Part shown: piece by piece, positions 6,118 through 14,133 of the stretch
Layout: each line of letters begins with the position of its first letter
How positions within the stretch are numbered: the first letter of the stretch is position 1
IMG/VR virus record: IMGVR_UViG_3300044797_000077
Span: 1 to 25,441 of that record
DNA: 25,441 bases
DNA from: a virus
Strand: one strand, 5' to 3'
Position numbers and translations under genes: made by a program
The notes under the pieces: generated by a model
The model's database searches: none
What the model was told of the DNA's origin: nothing
Seen by the model: only the letters and a program-made list of their open reading frames with translations

Positions 6118-7794
6118 TTACTTATCCCCATCGCTGCCATCGGTTCCTGCTGCTTGTGGTATTGCATTATTACCAAATTGATTAGCAAAACCAACCGCTT
6201 TTCTTCGCAATGTATCTTCGCTATCTCCCGCTTGTGGTAAAAACGGTTTTACAACATTTTCAATTATTCTTGGAGAATAACGCAACTCGGACAAGCGCGC
6301 TCTCATTGCAGCTTGTGTCTGCTCCAATTCTTGCTTGTTAGCAAATTCTCCTGTTCCTTGGACATTACGGGAAACAGGCGACCAATTTGTTGATTGGCTT
6401 GGCATTGATGTTAGTCTTTGAACAAGATCGGGTTTCATTGGAATGGGTGTTTTTGTATCGCCTTTCTGTGGATGCGATATATCGGAGCGTTCTCCGCCAA
6501 CTGGAATGCCAAGACCTTGTTGCGCTCCGCGTTGCAATGCTTCTGTCCAAGAGATTGGCTTACCTGCCGTATTGGCATCGTCGAATTGCTTTTGTGCTCT
6601 ATCAAGAACCGCTTTGCGTTGCTCGGGATTAGGTCCAACCGATCTAACAGGATTTGCTTTCACTTGATAATTCATTTCCTGATCGGTTTGTGTCTTCTTC
6701 ACTTCTGCAATCTTCTCTTGGATGCCAAGTTTCATTTGCTGAAAAGCAGTGTTTGCGGTATAGTTATCGCCAAGAAGTTTCGCTTGTCTATCAAGATCTC
6801 TATCTGCAACTGTCCAAGCAGAGAGCTTGCTTTCGCCTTCCGCTCGTATCATTGCAAGATTTGCATCGAACTTGTTGTTCGCAAGTTCTCCGCGTTTGGA
6901 TAGAACTTTATATGCTTTATCCATATCATATTTCTGTGATTCTATATCATCATCAATCTGCTTATTGACAATATCTAACGCTGGATTGCCTGAACGCCTT
7001 GCAAGACCTTGCCCAAATTGCGTTAGACCGATTGTAAGAGCGTTGCCAATGTTAGCAGCCGTTCCAGCGTTTTTGAAGTATCGCTTTGGGTCAAGGCCTT
7101 TTGCATCAAGTTCATCTAATTGAGCATTGATCTTGGAGTGCATACCATCATAATCTTTGCTAACCTTGTTGCGCCGATCGGCTAATTCTTTTTGATCGTG
7201 CTCAAACTGCAAGCGTGCAATAGTGGAGTTTTCTAATAATGTTTGAGATTGCTCGGCGCGTTGGCGGTTGGCTTCTTCTTGTGCAGCGGTTGCTTCATCA
7301 AGAGATTTGATGTGCTCTGCATTGATTTTTGTCTTGTCATCAAGGTCTTTCTTGTAAGCAGAAAGGGGAACGCCTCCCGTTTGACGAGTTTGAAGAAATG
7401 AGCCTAATTCGGCTTCGCTCGGACCGCTTGCCGTTGGCTGTGCTGTTGGCTGTGCTGTTGGTGGCGGTAAAAGGTCTTTTGCATCTTTTGCAACGGGAGC
7501 GGGAACAGGCGCTGAAGCTGGCACGGAAGACTGTGGTAATCCTGCGATTGCCGTATCTGCTTGTGCTTGTGATAAAGTGCCTGCTTTGACCTGTGCCATT
7601 ACAGCAGCTTTTGCGTTTGCTGTTTCTTGTGGCGTCATTCCACTATAATTAGATGGTGGTGGAGTAGGCATCGCTGCTGGTGCCTGCTGGCTACCAATTG
7701 CTATTCCAGGGGGTTGTGCTGGTGCTGGTTGCCCGTTGGTAGCTTGCGGAAAATCAGGGTTATTCAAATCATTATTGACGTCTAATGGGTTCAT
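6118..7794 (-). CDS. Coiled-coil internal virion protein, ejection-protein candidate (558 aa)
   Basis: A Pro/Ala/Gln-rich low-complexity N-terminus (1-130) leads into a long charged helical region (about 130-250). Then comes a conserved-looking segment, GNALTIGLTQFGQGLARR (about 250-267), followed by NPALDIVNKQIDDDIESQK. That motif recurs, as far as I recall, in internal proteins of short-tailed phages. More coiled coil and a Gln-rich tail follow. There is no signal peptide. Its ATG shares one base with the stop of the S74 protein (TAATG). It probably packs inside the head or tail and leaves with the DNA together with the 868-aa partner encoded next. Alternatives are a tail-associated structural protein or a scaffold-like spacer. 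Confidence 0.6.
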   Translation of the reverse strand: MNPLDVNNDLNNPDFPQATNGQPAPAQPPGIAIGSQQAPAAMPTPPPSNYSGMTPQETANAKAAVMAQVKAGTLSQAQADTAIAGLPQSSVPASAPVPAPVAKDAKDLLPPPTAQPTAQPTASGPSEAELGSFLQTRQTGGVPLSAYKKDLDDKTKINAEHIKSLDEATAAQEEANRQRAEQSQTLLENSTIARLQFEHDQKELADRRNKVSKDYDGMHSKINAQLDELDAKGLDPKRYFKNAGTAANIGNALTIGLTQFGQGLARRSGNPALDIVNKQIDDDIESQKYDMDKAYKVLSKRGELANNKFDANLAMIRAEGESKLSAWTVADRDLDRQAKLLGDNYTANTAFQQMKLGIQEKIAEVKKTQTDQEMNYQVKANPVRSVGPNPEQRKAVLDRAQKQFDDANTAGKPISWTEALQRGAQQGLGIPVGGERSDISHPQKGDTKTPIPMKPDLVQRLTSMPSQSTNWSPVSRNVQGTGEFANKQELEQTQAAMRARLSELRYSPRIIENVVKPFLPQAGDSEDTLRRKAVGFANQFGNNAIPQAAGTDGSDGDK

Positions 7795-10700
7795 TACGAT
7801 TTCTTTCCTTCCAATTTATTGATGCGTTCATTTAGATATGCCTGCGATGCCATCATTACGGGAAGCATACCTTTGTAATCGACCATTTTTCCGTTAGGAG
7901 TATCTTTTACAAATTGCTTGCCAATTTCTGATTTTTCAATATCCTGTGCCATCACACCAGTCCTTTGACCTGGCATAGCTCCGGGCGCATTAGGATTTTT
8001 ATATCTATAATTATATGCGTGAAGATTATTGAGAAAGTCTGCTTGCTTTTTGTAATCTTCTTTTGTATCAGTTTTCTTGTCTTCATCTGATGACAACCAT
8101 TGAGACATAGGTGTTGTTCCAGTGGTGGAATTAGCGGAGAATAATGCTTGTTGATTAGCGGGAAGATTAGCCATATTCTGCGAGTTTTGATTTAGCCATT
8201 GTTGCTTTTGGCTTTGCAAAACCATATTATTTTGTTGTCCATTGACTGTATCCATCATACCACCATTGCCGGACATATCTGCTGGATTAGGTTGTAAGAC
8301 ACCATTACCATTAGTTTGTTGTGCTTGTGCCTGTGTATAACCTCCGGGAGTAAAACCACCAGCATTCGTTATACCGCCACCAAAAACGCTTCCTTGTTGG
8401 ACACCACCAGACGAATTGGTTCCGCCAAAGGTTGGACTTGAATTATTATAGCGATTTTGACCATACGGAATAGGCATACTTGTTGGCATTGGTCTATCTG
8501 CTTGGTTTTGCGATTGCGGGTTATATCCTTGTTGTTGGAAAGGACTGGAATTGCCGGAATTATTTGCGTTGGTTTGTTGATTGGCTTGTTGAAGGAACGA
8601 TTGAATACCTTTGGAGCCAGAAGAGATAGCTTCTTTTTCTCTATCGTCGGACAGTTGCCAAGATGGTGCGTCCGATTGAACTTGGACATTATCATCAATT
8701 GGTGTTGTGGTAGTTCTAACCAAACGTTGATTGCCTTTGGAACCAGTAGTGGAATCCACTGCATTACCTGCCGTCGAGCCAGCCAAACCGCCTACTACTC
8801 CACCTAAAACACCACCAATTGCAGTGCCTACACCTGGAAAGATTAGAGTTCCAAGAGCAGCACCACCAGCAGCGCCAGCAGCAGCACCACCAGCACCTCC
8901 AAGTTTTGCTCCAAGACTGCCATCCGTGTTAGCTTGTCCGGGAGTTCCGACTACTTTGGTTGTTGTTTGAGGTGCGCTTGATTGAGTAATGGGCGAAGAA
9001 GAAGAATTTGAGCTTTGTAGGCTGGAATCATCTTCTTTGAGATTATCTAAAAATGATTGAAGCATCGGATTGCCACCCTCAATACCTGTTTTTAGATTTT
9101 CATCGGATGAAGTGTCATCACCACTATCATCGGGATAATTGCCGGGAGTTGAACTTGTATTACCTGTGAATTGTCCGGGACCATTTACAACGGTGCCTCC
9201 TGAACTATTGAAGGTTCCACCACCATTAGAGAAAGAACCTCCTGTTGCTGGGTTCTGTCCAGCATAAGGATTAGAATTGAGTGAATTGAGACCATATCCA
9301 GTACCAGCACCAACCGCCGACATAAAGGAACCAACAAGATTAGTATTATTACTCGCAGCATTTGCATATGCATTGGCATTGATCTGGTTATTACCAAGAT
9401 TTTGCTGCACGGCTAATTGTTCCGCAGATAGATCAGCAGCGCGATTGCTTTCTGATATACCGGTTTCAGCACCAAGAAGAGCATCGGTTTGATCGGCATT
9501 GAGAGTGGCGTTTTGTAATGTCATCTGTTGATTGGCGAGATCGCTTTGTTGCTGATTTGCGATGTTATTGTTCGTCATCGTATTCATCGCACTAGCATTA
9601 TAGACATCCGCTGCTTGTTGATTATTGAGATTTTGCATACCAAACTGATTTTGAGCATTCATATTGTTCGTAATCATTTGGTTGTTATAGCCAAGATTGG
9701 CTATATTGGTTGTATTGGCTGCCGTCGCATTCTGACTTGCCATATTGTTTTGAGCGGTAAGATTAGCAAGGTTCATTCCTTGTGTGAGACCAGCATTCGT
9801 TGTATTGGCTGCTTGTTGATTATTGACATTCGTAGTAGCCATATTTTGCGAAAGATTGGCATTGAATTGATTGTTAGTGTTCGCATTGTTCGCATTCAAT
9901 ACATTGGTTGCTTGTTGTTGCTGGCTGTTCTGGCTAATCATCGAATTAGCGTTTTGCATATTAGCCAATGCCACTGCATTAGAATTATTTGCATTTGTCG
10001 TTGCAGCCTGTTGCGCTTGTGCAGAGTTTTGCAATAAGGCGCCTTGTGCAAGATTTGCATTGAGATTATTTGTATTTTGATTGAGTTGCGCTTGGGTGAT
10101 ATTGAGATTTTGCAATTGACTATTGGCTGTGCCAGCAACATTGCCAACCGTATTCTCTGCGGTATTTACTTCTTGTTGTCTCGCAAGGCTTTGATTTGCA
10201 GCAAGATTTTGTTGCGCCGATGCTGCTTGTTCTGCTGCTTGTCTTTGAGCAAGTGCTGTATTAGCTGCACCTCTTTGAGAGCCAATTTGAGCAAGTTGAT
10301 TTGCAACTTGTTGTTGTTCTCCTTGTTGTAATTGAATACCTGCAACCGATGGTGCCGTGCCATTGACAACATTTTGTAATTGTTGAATATTTTGTTGTTG
10401 GTCGTTTTGAAAGACTGTTGGATTGGCAATTGTAGCACCGTTGGTTTGTGCATAACCACTTTGCGCTGCTTGCATTTGTGCTGCTCTTGCTTGCGCTGCC
10501 TGTGCTTGCGCTGCTTGTGCGGTTGCCAATTGTGCGGACGCTGCTTGCCCTTGCGCTGCTTGCATCGATGCTGCATTGCCCGTTATAGCTTGCCCATTGA
10601 TAGAGTTGCCGTTCTGTGCTGTGCCTGTGATTGCTTGTCCTGTTGCTGGATTTACCTGTGCAACTTGTTGATAATTTCCTTGTGCAGCATTTGCATTAGC

Positions 10701-11087
10701 ATTGCCTTGCGGAATAACTTGAAGGTTATTATTGATACCATTCCAAATCTGATTTAGACCAAAGTTGCCATCATTAGTACCACCAAGAACAGCATTAGCA
10801 CCGCCCGTCGTTCCTGTTAGTTCTCCGTTGGCATTGATTGGAAGATTATTGGCTTGATATATACCAAGACCTAAAAGACCTGGATTTTGTCCCGCTCCGC
10901 CCGTGCCTTGCGGAATGCCATTATCAAATGTTTGGGTTGGAACAGGCATTTGAGTAGAACCACCAGTAGTAGTAGGGTTAGTGATCTGCCCAGTGGCTGG
11001 ATTGATAGTTCCTGTTGTGGTAGAGCCATTAGGGTTCAATTGATCTACGTTGTAGCTTGGTTTTGCTCCGCTATTCATTTGTGGCAT
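7794..11087 (-). CDS. Asn/Gln-rich virion protein with C-terminal S74 intramolecular chaperone domain (1097 aa)
   Basis: Residues about 100-610 are extremely rich in Asn, Gln and Ala (runs such as NANNANTNNQFNANL). The C-terminal ~98 residues match the peptidase S74 / endosialidase-type chaperone: SDEDKK at S1000-K1005, FLNNLHAYNYRYK, TGVMAQDIEK, MVDYKGMLPVMMASQAYLNERI, then a short coiled coil. In that family Ser and the Lys five residues later form a dyad that cuts the chaperone off after trimer folding, and both are present here. Two earlier copies of the start motif occur at S661-K666 (SDENLK) and S813-K818 (SDDREK), each followed by a similar QSFL segment but without the rest of the domain. 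A glycine-zipper hydrophobic stretch lies at about 720-777. It has a good Shine-Dalgarno (AAGGA). It is likely a trimeric tail or fibre protein, though its place before the ejection genes would also allow an internal role. Confidence 0.8.
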   Translation of the reverse strand: MPQMNSGAKPSYNVDQLNPNGSTTTGTINPATGQITNPTTTGGSTQMPVPTQTFDNGIPQGTGGAGQNPGLLGLGIYQANNLPINANGELTGTTGGANAVLGGTNDGNFGLNQIWNGINNNLQVIPQGNANANAAQGNYQQVAQVNPATGQAITGTAQNGNSINGQAITGNAASMQAAQGQAASAQLATAQAAQAQAAQARAAQMQAAQSGYAQTNGATIANPTVFQNDQQQNIQQLQNVVNGTAPSVAGIQLQQGEQQQVANQLAQIGSQRGAANTALAQRQAAEQAASAQQNLAANQSLARQQEVNTAENTVGNVAGTANSQLQNLNITQAQLNQNTNNLNANLAQGALLQNSAQAQQAATTNANNSNAVALANMQNANSMISQNSQQQQATNVLNANNANTNNQFNANLSQNMATTNVNNQQAANTTNAGLTQGMNLANLTAQNNMASQNATAANTTNIANLGYNNQMITNNMNAQNQFGMQNLNNQQAADVYNASAMNTMTNNNIANQQQSDLANQQMTLQNATLNADQTDALLGAETGISESNRAADLSAEQLAVQQNLGNNQINANAYANAASNNTNLVGSFMSAVGAGTGYGLNSLNSNPYAGQNPATGGSFSNGGGTFNSSGGTVVNGPGQFTGNTSSTPGNYPDDSGDDTSSDENLKTGIEGGNPMLQSFLDNLKEDDSSLQSSNSSSSPITQSSAPQTTTKVVGTPGQANTDGSLGAKLGGAGGAAAGAAGGAALGTLIFPGVGTAIGGVLGGVVGGLAGSTAGNAVDSTTGSKGNQRLVRTTTTPIDDNVQVQSDAPSWQLSDDREKEAISSGSKGIQSFLQQANQQTNANNSGNSSPFQQQGYNPQSQNQADRPMPTSMPIPYGQNRYNNSSPTFGGTNSSGGVQQGSVFGGGITNAGGFTPGGYTQAQAQQTNGNGVLQPNPADMSGNGGMMDTVNGQQNNMVLQSQKQQWLNQNSQNMANLPANQQALFSANSTTGTTPMSQWLSSDEDKKTDTKEDYKKQADFLNNLHAYNYRYKNPNAPGAMPGQRTGVMAQDIEKSEIGKQFVKDTPNGKMVDYKGMLPVMMASQAYLNERINKLEGKKS
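8010..8095 (-). other. S74 cleavage motif and start of chaperone domain (third and intact copy)
   Basis: Codons for S1000-D1001-x-x-x-K1005 start at 8090 and are followed by the FLNN and YNYRYK strands. By analogy with endosialidase chaperones, peptide cleavage would occur just before S1000 and release a C-terminal fragment of about 98 residues. Confidence 0.7.
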
Positions 11088-11112: not shown

Positions 11113-14100
11113 TTATAGCCTGCTAAATCGTTTTCTACTCGGAAGACGATTACCCTTATCCTTCAATTGAATTTCCAATGTCAAAACCGATAAGGACATT
11201 GCTTGACCGGGTGATTGCTCATTGTCTGAAAATTGAAAACGCACGGCAGTACATTTGGTATCAATATCAAAACAGAAGTTATAGACACTATCGCCATAGT
11301 ATCCGCCACCAAAATAAGGATCGGCGCCATAGGTAGTGGCAGTTCCGTAATTGGTTGTTGGTCCCGTTCCAAGTGCCGTATCAACAATCACACTCTCATA
11401 ATCTTTGAAGGATGTTTCATAATCGAAACCAATCGCACAAGAAAGATTATGAGTAGAGAAATAGGAACCAAGGAGATATGCTTTGCAGACACGCATATAC
11501 CCATTGATAACGGAAGGTGTGATCCAAGCCGTTGTTAGAGATAACGGATAGAACGCGCCATTGTCGTTATAAGTAGATGTCTGTTGAATATGAACGCTGC
11601 CATTTGGATTGGCAAAGACGAATAGATTGTTATTACCAAGATAAATATCGCTATCGATTGCGGTATGATTCGTGAATTTTTTCCAAGTATCATAAAAGTA
11701 ATCATAGACGATTGCGATATCGGTTGAAGTTGTTTGGAAGATTACCCATTGCGGAGGAACAACGGTTGCGGATTTGACAGGAACAAAGGATGATCCCCAG
11801 AAGCCAATTGCTGGTGCTCCCTTCAATGAAACATTGTGTCCTTGATCCAAAAGATATATACCTCCGTTCGGAGCTTGAAAAAACATTCCTTGTGGGATTG
11901 AGGCAATTGAGTTTTGATTGTAGCAACCGACATCCGATGGTATTTGCGTAGGATCGCCAAAGTCGGAGTTTTGTCCATTTGCGTCTGGACCTTGCCCTTG
12001 AAGATAGAATATACCATTCTGGCAAAAGATAATTAGACATTGTCCAAGAACGCCAAGAGCCGTAATTACTCCAACGCGAGGATCGATATCAATCGTTAGC
12101 TCGGCGCAAAACTGTGCCGGTGTATTTGGAATGATTTGTTGTGTGTATTGAATGCGATTAGGCATTTCATTGGAAACAACGAAAAGGCGACTTGCATATG
12201 ATGTGATCAGACGGACCGAAGGAGGTGCAACATTTTCAAGGGTTGTTGGCGCTCCAACAACATCCGGTTGCGTATATAAAAGAGCATTAGATTGTAAAGA
12301 AGCATCGGATTGTGTGCTTGTGAATGTAATGCTATCTTGCGTTGGATCATTATACTTCGGAAGAAGAGCCGAGCTATCGCGATAGAATAAGGTGCCGTTC
12401 GCAATCGTCCGATAAAAAACAACCTTGACATTGGTTTTACCTGTCAAGCGAAGCATTGGTGCGGTGATTGTTGCTTGATTCGTTGTTCCTGAATTGAAAG
12501 CAGTAGAGATCGAAATTGATGGTGTGCTTATGGCAGTGTCTGCATTATTGTCAGCGCTCTCATATGTGATGATCCAATCATAGGTCCCAGTTCCAAGATT
12601 GCCACCAGTGCCAGAAGTTGAAACGCTTGCGCCTTCGGGATATTGATGAAAACCACATTCGAAAAACTTGCTGCCATCATATTGAAGAAGAATACCGCCA
12701 ACGGTATAAAGGGAGTTATTGAATGTTGCAGAAAGGAATTGATTGCTATCGAAAAAGTCAAGCTTTGTAGAATGCACTCCAAGAAGACCAAAAACAGTTC
12801 CAAGCTCGGATATTGGAACACCATATTCGAGATTGGCAAATTTGAATATCCCTGCTGATATTGATTGACATTCAGGAAGAATATAATCGGAGTTTTGTAT
12901 AACTCCACCCGATAGACTTGGAAGCATCTTTGCTATCGTATTGCCGTATTGGTCAAGAGTGAAATATGTTGGTTGAAGAGCAGATTGAAAGACAACATTG
13001 AGCAGAATGGTATTGTTATAATAGAATGGCTTGGATGCCAATCCTAATGCTCTTTTGAAAACGCTTGTTGTGCCAACGGTTCCAGATGTTGAGATCGTGT
13101 TCTGATAGATAACATTATTATACACACCACCAACTACGTTGCCCATTGCCTCGGCATAAATATTACCATTGATTGATACGATCGCTGTTAGAACTCCCGT
13201 TGATTGACTGATGGTAGTTGTCGCAGCAACAAGAGAAGATAGCGAAGAAGTATAGATTGCGGTTTTAGCCTGATCGTTGTTGTTAGCGTCCGAAAAGGAA
13301 ACATACACATTGTTAGAAAGATCACTACCAACATTGATACAGCCAATGGGTGAGGCTCCAATTGTAGAGACCTGGACTTGTTGAGCGATTTGCATTGACG
13401 AATTGACTTGGACCAACTGAACTGTTGTGCTCGTATAAAATGCGATATACAGACTACCAGCAATAACAGCAGCATCATAGTAAGCAGGATCGGAAAGACC
13501 ATTCAAGAGAATATTTACATAAGTCGGAACTTGGCTTGGATTGCTTGGATTGACCGTAGTAAAAAGAAGTTGTCCGCTTGCATTCACAAAGAGAATGACA
13601 ATTTGATTTCCAAAAGGAAGCGTCTTTGGTCTGACATTGGCAGAAGGGCAATTAGTGTAAAGAATACTGTCATTGAGAATTATATTTCCAACCGTTGCGT
13701 CTAAAACAGAATAGCGAAGCGATCCTCTGGTATCCTCCCAAGCATATACCTCTATTCCGTTGAGTGAGGCAAAATCAGGTGAAAGTTGCTGGTTGTTGTT
13801 CGCTACGATTCCTTCGCCCGACACAATAACCGATCTTGCGGTTCCTCGATTTAGCCATTGATCCGTAGATTGTGAATATGAATAAGCATAAGTATTGTCG
13901 AACAGAAGCATTTCTTCTTCAAATGCATTGAGAGCAAAAGCGGAAGATATAGTTGAAGTAGAGCCAACAATGCCTTGACCGAGTTTCTTTGTTCCCCAGC
14001 GTTTATCTACACGTCCAGTTTTAGTGAAGATACCATTTTGCAAATCATAGAGCTTATTTGCTGGTAATTGAAAAGGATCGCTTTTTGTATCAACCCCTAC

Positions 14101-14133
14101 GCCAAGTGGAATCGGATATAACTGATATGGCAT
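11113..14133 (-). CDS. Tail hub / DNA-stabilisation protein, P22 gp10- or T7 gp12-like (1006 aa)
   Basis: The N-terminus has the pattern LGVGVDTKSDPFQLPANKL, followed by LQNGIFTKTGRVDKRWG (about residues 10-48). I know it from short-tail hub or nozzle proteins of podoviruses, where the ordered N-terminal arm precedes a large beta-propeller. The rest is beta-rich with repeating strand motifs and ends in a basic tail (NRLPSRKRFSRL). Length exceeds P22 gp10 (about 470 aa) and T7 gp12 (about 790 aa), so an extra beta domain is likely. Its ATG overlaps the stop of the glycine-rich gene by one base. It would close the head after packaging and hold fibres. The family assignment rests on the N-terminal pattern and on position beside adaptor and fibres. 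Confidence 0.7.
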   Translation of the reverse strand: MPYQLYPIPLGVGVDTKSDPFQLPANKLYDLQNGIFTKTGRVDKRWGTKKLGQGIVGSTSTISSAFALNAFEEEMLLFDNTYAYSYSQSTDQWLNRGTARSVIVSGEGIVANNNQQLSPDFASLNGIEVYAWEDTRGSLRYSVLDATVGNIILNDSILYTNCPSANVRPKTLPFGNQIVILFVNASGQLLFTTVNPSNPSQVPTYVNILLNGLSDPAYYDAAVIAGSLYIAFYTSTTVQLVQVNSSMQIAQQVQVSTIGASPIGCINVGSDLSNNVYVSFSDANNNDQAKTAIYTSSLSSLVAATTTISQSTGVLTAIVSINGNIYAEAMGNVVGGVYNNVIYQNTISTSGTVGTTSVFKRALGLASKPFYYNNTILLNVVFQSALQPTYFTLDQYGNTIAKMLPSLSGGVIQNSDYILPECQSISAGIFKFANLEYGVPISELGTVFGLLGVHSTKLDFFDSNQFLSATFNNSLYTVGGILLQYDGSKFFECGFHQYPEGASVSTSGTGGNLGTGTYDWIITYESADNNADTAISTPSISISTAFNSGTTNQATITAPMLRLTGKTNVKVVFYRTIANGTLFYRDSSALLPKYNDPTQDSITFTSTQSDASLQSNALLYTQPDVVGAPTTLENVAPPSVRLITSYASRLFVVSNEMPNRIQYTQQIIPNTPAQFCAELTIDIDPRVGVITALGVLGQCLIIFCQNGIFYLQGQGPDANGQNSDFGDPTQIPSDVGCYNQNSIASIPQGMFFQAPNGGIYLLDQGHNVSLKGAPAIGFWGSSFVPVKSATVVPPQWVIFQTTSTDIAIVYDYFYDTWKKFTNHTAIDSDIYLGNNNLFVFANPNGSVHIQQTSTYNDNGAFYPLSLTTAWITPSVINGYMRVCKAYLLGSYFSTHNLSCAIGFDYETSFKDYESVIVDTALGTGPTTNYGTATTYGADPYFGGGYYGDSVYNFCFDIDTKCTAVRFQFSDNEQSPGQAMSLSVLTLEIQLKDKGNRLPSRKRFSRL

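Follow-up and report, generated by a model that had tools for sequence, protein, structure and literature searches.

Detached heads of a predicted Peptidase_S74/ICA domain within a phage protein and on neighbouring genes

S74/ICA domains have been portrayed as self-attached folding sensors that work once, with a single cleavage site lying beside its own cutter, after a beta-structured trimeric fibre. In the ICA domain of MyRF, a cleavage segment termed the "cable" is followed by helix 1, the strands of a "donut" cutter and a coiled-coil helix (PMC8326128). The cable of one subunit threads the donut of its neighbour and carries both dyad residues, S587 and K592, and mutating either of them to Ala abolishes the cleavage (PMC8326128). 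The K583A variant of MYRF still oligomerises (PMC3742443), and a pre-cleavage trimer structure of the S911A variant of endoNF (3gw6) is known, as cited in PMC8326128. Chaperones may also be separate from the protein they serve: Alteromonas phages A5 and V22 possess separate tail-fibre chaperones related to ICA domains, which bind the fibre via beta-strands (PMC10579305). In Salmonella phage SPN3US, ejected head proteins are described as being matured by the prohead protease (PMC10052503).

We analysed a 25.4-kb stretch of viral DNA (25,441 nucleotides, hereafter the window). On its minus strand it encodes a terminase, a P22-like portal and a T4 gp9/10-like protein. The 1097-aa protein under study (7794..11087, minus strand) is an open reading frame with orthologues in L016, L103, L104 and L105; judging from its gene neighbourhood, it is a virion-module protein probably located in the virion. 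From N- to C-terminus, it comprises a helical N/Q/A-rich rod, head copy 1, a glycine-zipper segment, head copy 2, a linker and a complete S74/ICA domain, the heads being copies of the domain start. The conserved part of the rod (about residues 226–345, including GSQRG; 10053..10412, minus strand) ranks with the best conserved windows across the five orthologues, which are the window protein and its four relatives. The hydrophobic glycine-zipper segment between copies 1 and 2, assigned from its sequence (about residues 727–775; 8763..8909, minus strand), has Gly-rich hydrophobic counterparts at the equivalent position in all four relatives, and we would guess it to be a membrane-inserting or membrane-active ejection peptide. 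A Gly-rich stretch of this kind also comes after the head in L088 and before the tail head in L063. A tape-measure match of the 1097-aa protein, phrog_23574, sits on the glycine zipper and was discounted as composition; a PDB search with the whole protein likewise gave only a chance match to this segment. A Pfam search, in which a beta-helical or fibre domain was sought, found no match upstream of the S74 domain, and AlphaFold2 predicted residues 641–987 to be mostly unstructured with some helix, at low confidence.

The adjacent 1006-aa protein (11113..14133, minus strand) weakly matches phrog_511, an internal virion protein family (E 5e-4), and in 53 relatives the S74 gene lies at most 400 nt after the homologue of this neighbour. 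The L086 homologue also matches an amidase-labelled family. INPHARED searches with the whole 1097-aa protein, its C-terminus, the terminase, the 1006-aa neighbour and two relatives returned no match, and no cultured relative was found; the portal retrieved one distant record and a relative's homologue of the 1006-aa protein one weak match. Single-sequence scans of viral contigs with the 1097-aa protein, its 1006-aa neighbour and the terminase gave no matches, nor did the pattern MVDYxx[LM]LPVM[LM]A in viral contigs.

Residues 1000–1097 (7797..8090, minus strand) are a predicted Peptidase_S74/ICA domain by profile, dyad spacing and a fold with a long helix. PF13884 matches residues 1000–1052 only (E 4.7e-8, 33.6 bits against a cut-off of 22, profile positions 1–51 of 58), and the family profile finds 3gud, 6f45 and 8jov by sequence. 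The dyad S1000–K1005, with its S-x4-K spacing at the domain start, forms invariant columns in a 53-row alignment and aligns with the start of 3gud. An AlphaFold2 model of residues 988–1097, built from a 53-sequence alignment, adopts a confident ICA fold (pLDDT 89.7) with a long C-terminal helix at model residues 84–108. Its best solved counterparts are the MyRF ICA 7dc3 (Foldseek E 1.5e-4), endosialidase NF 3gw6 (Z 7.3), the T5 fibre 4uw8 and the GA-1 appendage protein 3gud, all of them ICA domains, and the entries after these folds reach only Z 2.9. Thus the protein is like the described S74/ICA domains in its C-terminal SDxxxK dyad domain, the order of helix and strands, the long C-terminal helix, and the profile and fold matches. 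With 7dc3, the closest solved fold by Foldseek E-value, the C-terminal copy shares the dyad, the YxYxYK aromatics and short beta3–beta4 strands in place of long tentacles. However, MyRF has one head per chain and one cut, whereas the window protein has three heads; the extra two are found 187 and 339 residues upstream, where they follow a helical rod and disordered linkers, and relatives have them on separate proteins.

Sequence analysis revealed that SDxxxK occurs exactly three times in the 1097-aa protein, at S661–K666, S813–K818 and S1000–K1005 (codons starting at 9107, 8651 and 8090, respectively, minus strand), and in none of the other annotated proteins of the window. Head copy 1 (SDENLKTGIEGGNPMLQSFLDNL, residues 661–683; 9039..9107, minus strand) corresponds to the cleavage-site cable and helix 1, and head copy 2 (SDDREKEAISSGSKGIQSFLQQA) spans residues 813–835 (8583..8651, minus strand). 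Both are colinear with the domain start in SDxxxK and a hydrophobic position 9, and copy 1 also has FL at positions 19–20, as in the C-terminal domains. The match of SDENLKTGIEGGNPMLQSFLDNL and SDDREKEAISSGSKGIQSFLQQ covers the cable and helix 1 and goes no further: the beta1–beta4 cutter and the C-terminal coiled-coil helix are absent, a low-complexity linker stands in their place, and PF13884 finds nothing there. Only the last copy goes on to the aromatic YxYxYK strand and the remainder of the domain. Given that PF13884 covers residues 1000–1052 only and that residues 988–1097 are modelled as an ICA fold, the final copy is a complete domain, whereas the inner two amount to heads and do not qualify as S74 domains. 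An earlier, sequence-only reading of this DNA had claimed as much, namely three SDxxxK motifs in one protein, the aliphatic stretches MLQSFLDNL, IQSFLQQ and ADFLNNL after them, a complete C-terminal S74 domain with an intact S1000/K1005 dyad, and inner copies of the domain start only; each of these points is borne out here. Copy 1 scores 21.3 bits against a hidden Markov model (HMM) of S74 heads; a control of reversed and shuffled sequences, six times larger, reached 3.8 bits at most. For copy 2 the score is just 1.1 bits, so that its case rests on the orthologues. The AlphaFold2 model of residues 641–1097 is uninformative overall (pLDDT 41), with the inner copies predicted as helical islands at pLDDT of about 50–60 against about 31 around them.

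The four diverged orthologues, retrieved from IMG/VR, share about 35%–40% pairwise identity with the window protein. The C-terminus led to L016; L104 and L105 were matched by I[EQ]GGNPM alone, a pattern free of the S, D and K of copy 1; and copy 2 never served as a search pattern for any orthologue. We looked for homologues lacking the inner Ser or Lys, which would speak against the sequence-only reading, and found S, D and K present at the two inner sites in each of the five orthologues. Among 1075 windows of 23 residues in the five orthologues, copy 1 ranks first in conservation, copy 2 ranks 105 and the head of the C-terminal copy 243. Ser661 is encoded by TCC, TCG, TCA, TCT or AGC and Ser813 by TCC or AGC; since both inner sites switch between TCN and AGY, the Ser has survived changes of codon family. 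The inner motifs are thus very probably a conserved working module.

Among 84 S74 proteins, the head HMM gave 20 inner matches above 0 bits in 13 proteins, 13 of these matches scoring at least 4.5, whereas the six-fold larger reversed and shuffled control gave 20 above 0 bits and none above 3.8. Further inner matches in L016 (at 766), L078 and L092 are weak and unsure. The position-specific counts include hand-chosen copies selected on SDxxxK, so their S, D and K columns are not evidence, and a scan that ignores motif positions 1 and 6 (Ser and Lys) was used instead. In this blind scan, all 14 of the 14 best matches carry both Ser and Lys; at 9 bits or above, 18 of 26 carry both, and the other eight equal the number in the reversed control (8). 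Half-decayed copies were absent from the blind scan. The residue before the Ser is hydrophobic in 69% of inner copies and 62% of genuine C-terminal sites, compared with 37% of the background. In many relatives there is just one copy and no tail. On a tree of the 1006-aa neighbour (a quick search with some long branches, the placement of L066 and L083 being unsure), the multi-copy state requires 8 changes, at least 5 of them forced by well-supported branches, and therefore recurs. Six SDxxxK matches (L020:154, L021:395, L042:64, L066:475, L083:29 and L022:353) were judged to be chance and excluded.

Several relatives show other arrangements. In L084 (8564–10258), the sole SDxxxK lies 100 residues before MAQD rather than the usual 40–53, owing to a long insert between it and helix 1, and helix 1 has no other SDxxxK ahead of it; the distance between a cable and its own domain can thus be large. 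In L044 (984–2396), one S74 domain begins with two SDxxxK motifs spaced by 24 residues, which apparently arose by insertion or local duplication within the head. L024 (1518–3860), L030 (920–3757) and L037 (2–682) encode, upstream of the S74 gene studied, a second separate protein whose S74-like C-terminus, with SDxxxK, is of the usual fibre type.

The main new finding, unseen in the sequence-only reading, came from scanning all open reading frames of the loci for the head and then reading the gene starts: separate proteins can likewise carry the module as a C-terminal tail. The tree of the 1006-aa protein places L059 as the immediate sister to the window clade (100% SH-aLRT), and this phage has three consecutive genes in place of the single one of the window. 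The first encodes a 385-aa rod protein, homologous to the window rod at about residues 226–345, which ends in MMLM followed by the head SDINTKKNIVIANSQLNKMLRRFAF; the second encodes a 177-aa protein ending in QLAM followed by the head SDMNAKKNIRPIRADIDNFLRGVYSNVIAKRK; and the third encodes a 409-aa protein with a complete S74 domain (PF13884). Each has its own start codon, the first two being ATG after AGGAG-type (Shine–Dalgarno-like) sequences. Between L059 and the window, the middle and linker segments show no similarity that could be detected, so that their match between the fused and split states rests on gene order and tails. Heads also form C-terminal tails of separate genes in L063, where the downstream gene product has a glycine-rich hydrophobic stretch and the head at its end, and in L082, and L088 has one within a separate gene. 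The head-bearing genes of L082 and L088 are separate rod genes. The S74 proteins of L066 and L072 contain the head themselves, and L072 is a well-supported sister of L088. Genes have clearly been fused or split, both between L059 and the window clade and between L088 and L072. Four of the five separate-gene heads score 13.9–15.5 bits compared with 8.7 for the best among reversed open reading frames (1.07 million residues); the fifth, the rod tail of L059, scores 4.9 bits and was accepted on position and exact motif. The evidence base is thus five orthologues and five separate-gene heads, from records that are fragments. Given that L059, L082, L088 and L063 carry the head on neighbouring genes, it is a portable module found detached from the cutter. 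We found no report of multiple or detached S74 heads in the open-access literature.

These observations enable us to propose a putative model, to which we assign a probability of about 0.5, in which the inner heads are extra self-cleavage sites served in cis or trans by the C-terminal S74 trimer, so that the protein would be split as a polyprotein. Each chain would most likely offer three cable segments to the three cutters of its trimer, and the bonds before S661, S813 and S1000 would be cut to yield the rod (1–660), a glycine-zipper piece (661–812), a linker piece (813–999) and the S74 trimer (1000–1097). Sister phages would make the same parts as separate proteins with the head at or near their C-termini, served in trans. 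Cutting would thereby equalise the fused and split gene states, with the rod, middle and linker pieces all freed from S74. Given that the dyad lies on the cable and that cutting already takes place between subunits, a detached head need only reach a donut. What counts against inner-site cutting is that one trimer has only three cutters and that many relatives make do with one copy and no tail. We know of no demonstrated cutting of a cable held far from its cutter. Conjectural as its cuts and their order are, the staged cleavage into four pieces put forward in the sequence-only reading fits all findings and is favoured by the sister phages that carry the pieces as separate genes. Sharing of the cutters, a putative sequence of cuts and a function in head or ejection assembly are likewise our inference. 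It is conceivable, at somewhat lower odds than the cutting itself, that several virion proteins, each bearing a short Ser–Lys head tag, are served in trans by one S74 trimer, whether they are encoded separately or as a polyprotein, the cut or docking step being decoupled from the cutter domain. Such a trimer would act on another polypeptide, as the A5/V22 chaperone does; there the chaperone is a separate gene, whereas here it is the cleavage-site head that is detached. Several virion proteins would arise from precursors, as is described for SPN3US, with a dedicated protease there and with cut sites carrying their own Ser–Lys dyad here.

The strongest alternative is that the heads are uncleaved docking tags, the inner and tail heads binding a released or intact S74 trimer as assembly addresses that gather rod, zipper and linker. 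The tails on separate proteins do resemble address tags, and helix 1, which builds an inter-subunit collar in MyRF (PMC8326128), is kept in the window clade, L059 and L063. However, docking needs neither Ser nor Lys, yet both are kept in every confident copy and across the Ser codon switches. The oligomerisation of MYRF K583A and the pre-cleavage trimer of endoNF S911A make this retention point to cutting over docking. Moreover, a tag would be largely redundant in the fused proteins, yet copy 1 is their best-conserved stretch, and several diverged inner copies keep SDxxxKxxI after losing a recognisable helix 1. We regard docking as possible and less likely than cleavage. A second alternative, that the inner copies are helix-1 collars or registration marks for the rod trimer, unrelated to the C-terminal cutter, is improbable: it accords with their prediction as helical islands and with the triangular collar formed by helix 1 in MyRF (PMC8326128), but the part most widely kept is SDxxxKxxI rather than helix 1, and an invariant Ser and Lys would be unneeded. 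To our knowledge, a collar without a central coiled coil has no precedent.

The sequence-only reading had also offered relics of domain duplication, and heads lacking the rest of the domain do look truncated in phages where fusion and fission have occurred. That relics of duplication or gene fusion were kept by chance is nevertheless very doubtful, given that copy 1 ranks first of 1075 windows with synonymous codon variation at invariant residues, that the blind scan shows no decayed copies, and that the multi-copy state recurs on the neighbour-gene tree; the relic proposal is accordingly dropped. That a short motif simply turned up by chance in a low-complexity protein, as the low score of copy 2 might suggest, can be dismissed on the shuffle tests (on average 0.05 SDxxxK motifs per shuffled 1097-aa protein, three or more in 0 of 20,000 shuffles, and in 2 of 20,000 when the C-terminal half alone is shuffled), the colinear spacing to the FL helix and the conservation in four diverged orthologues.

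In summary, this study describes S74 heads that lie apart from their cutter, within one protein and on separate genes. If heads work in trans, they would represent a short self-cleaving tag worth study. If detached heads are conserved both in cis and on neighbouring proteins, the S74/ICA domain would become a small shared processing or assembly system, and this would explain how several internal virion proteins come from one gene in some uncultivated podovirus-like phages.
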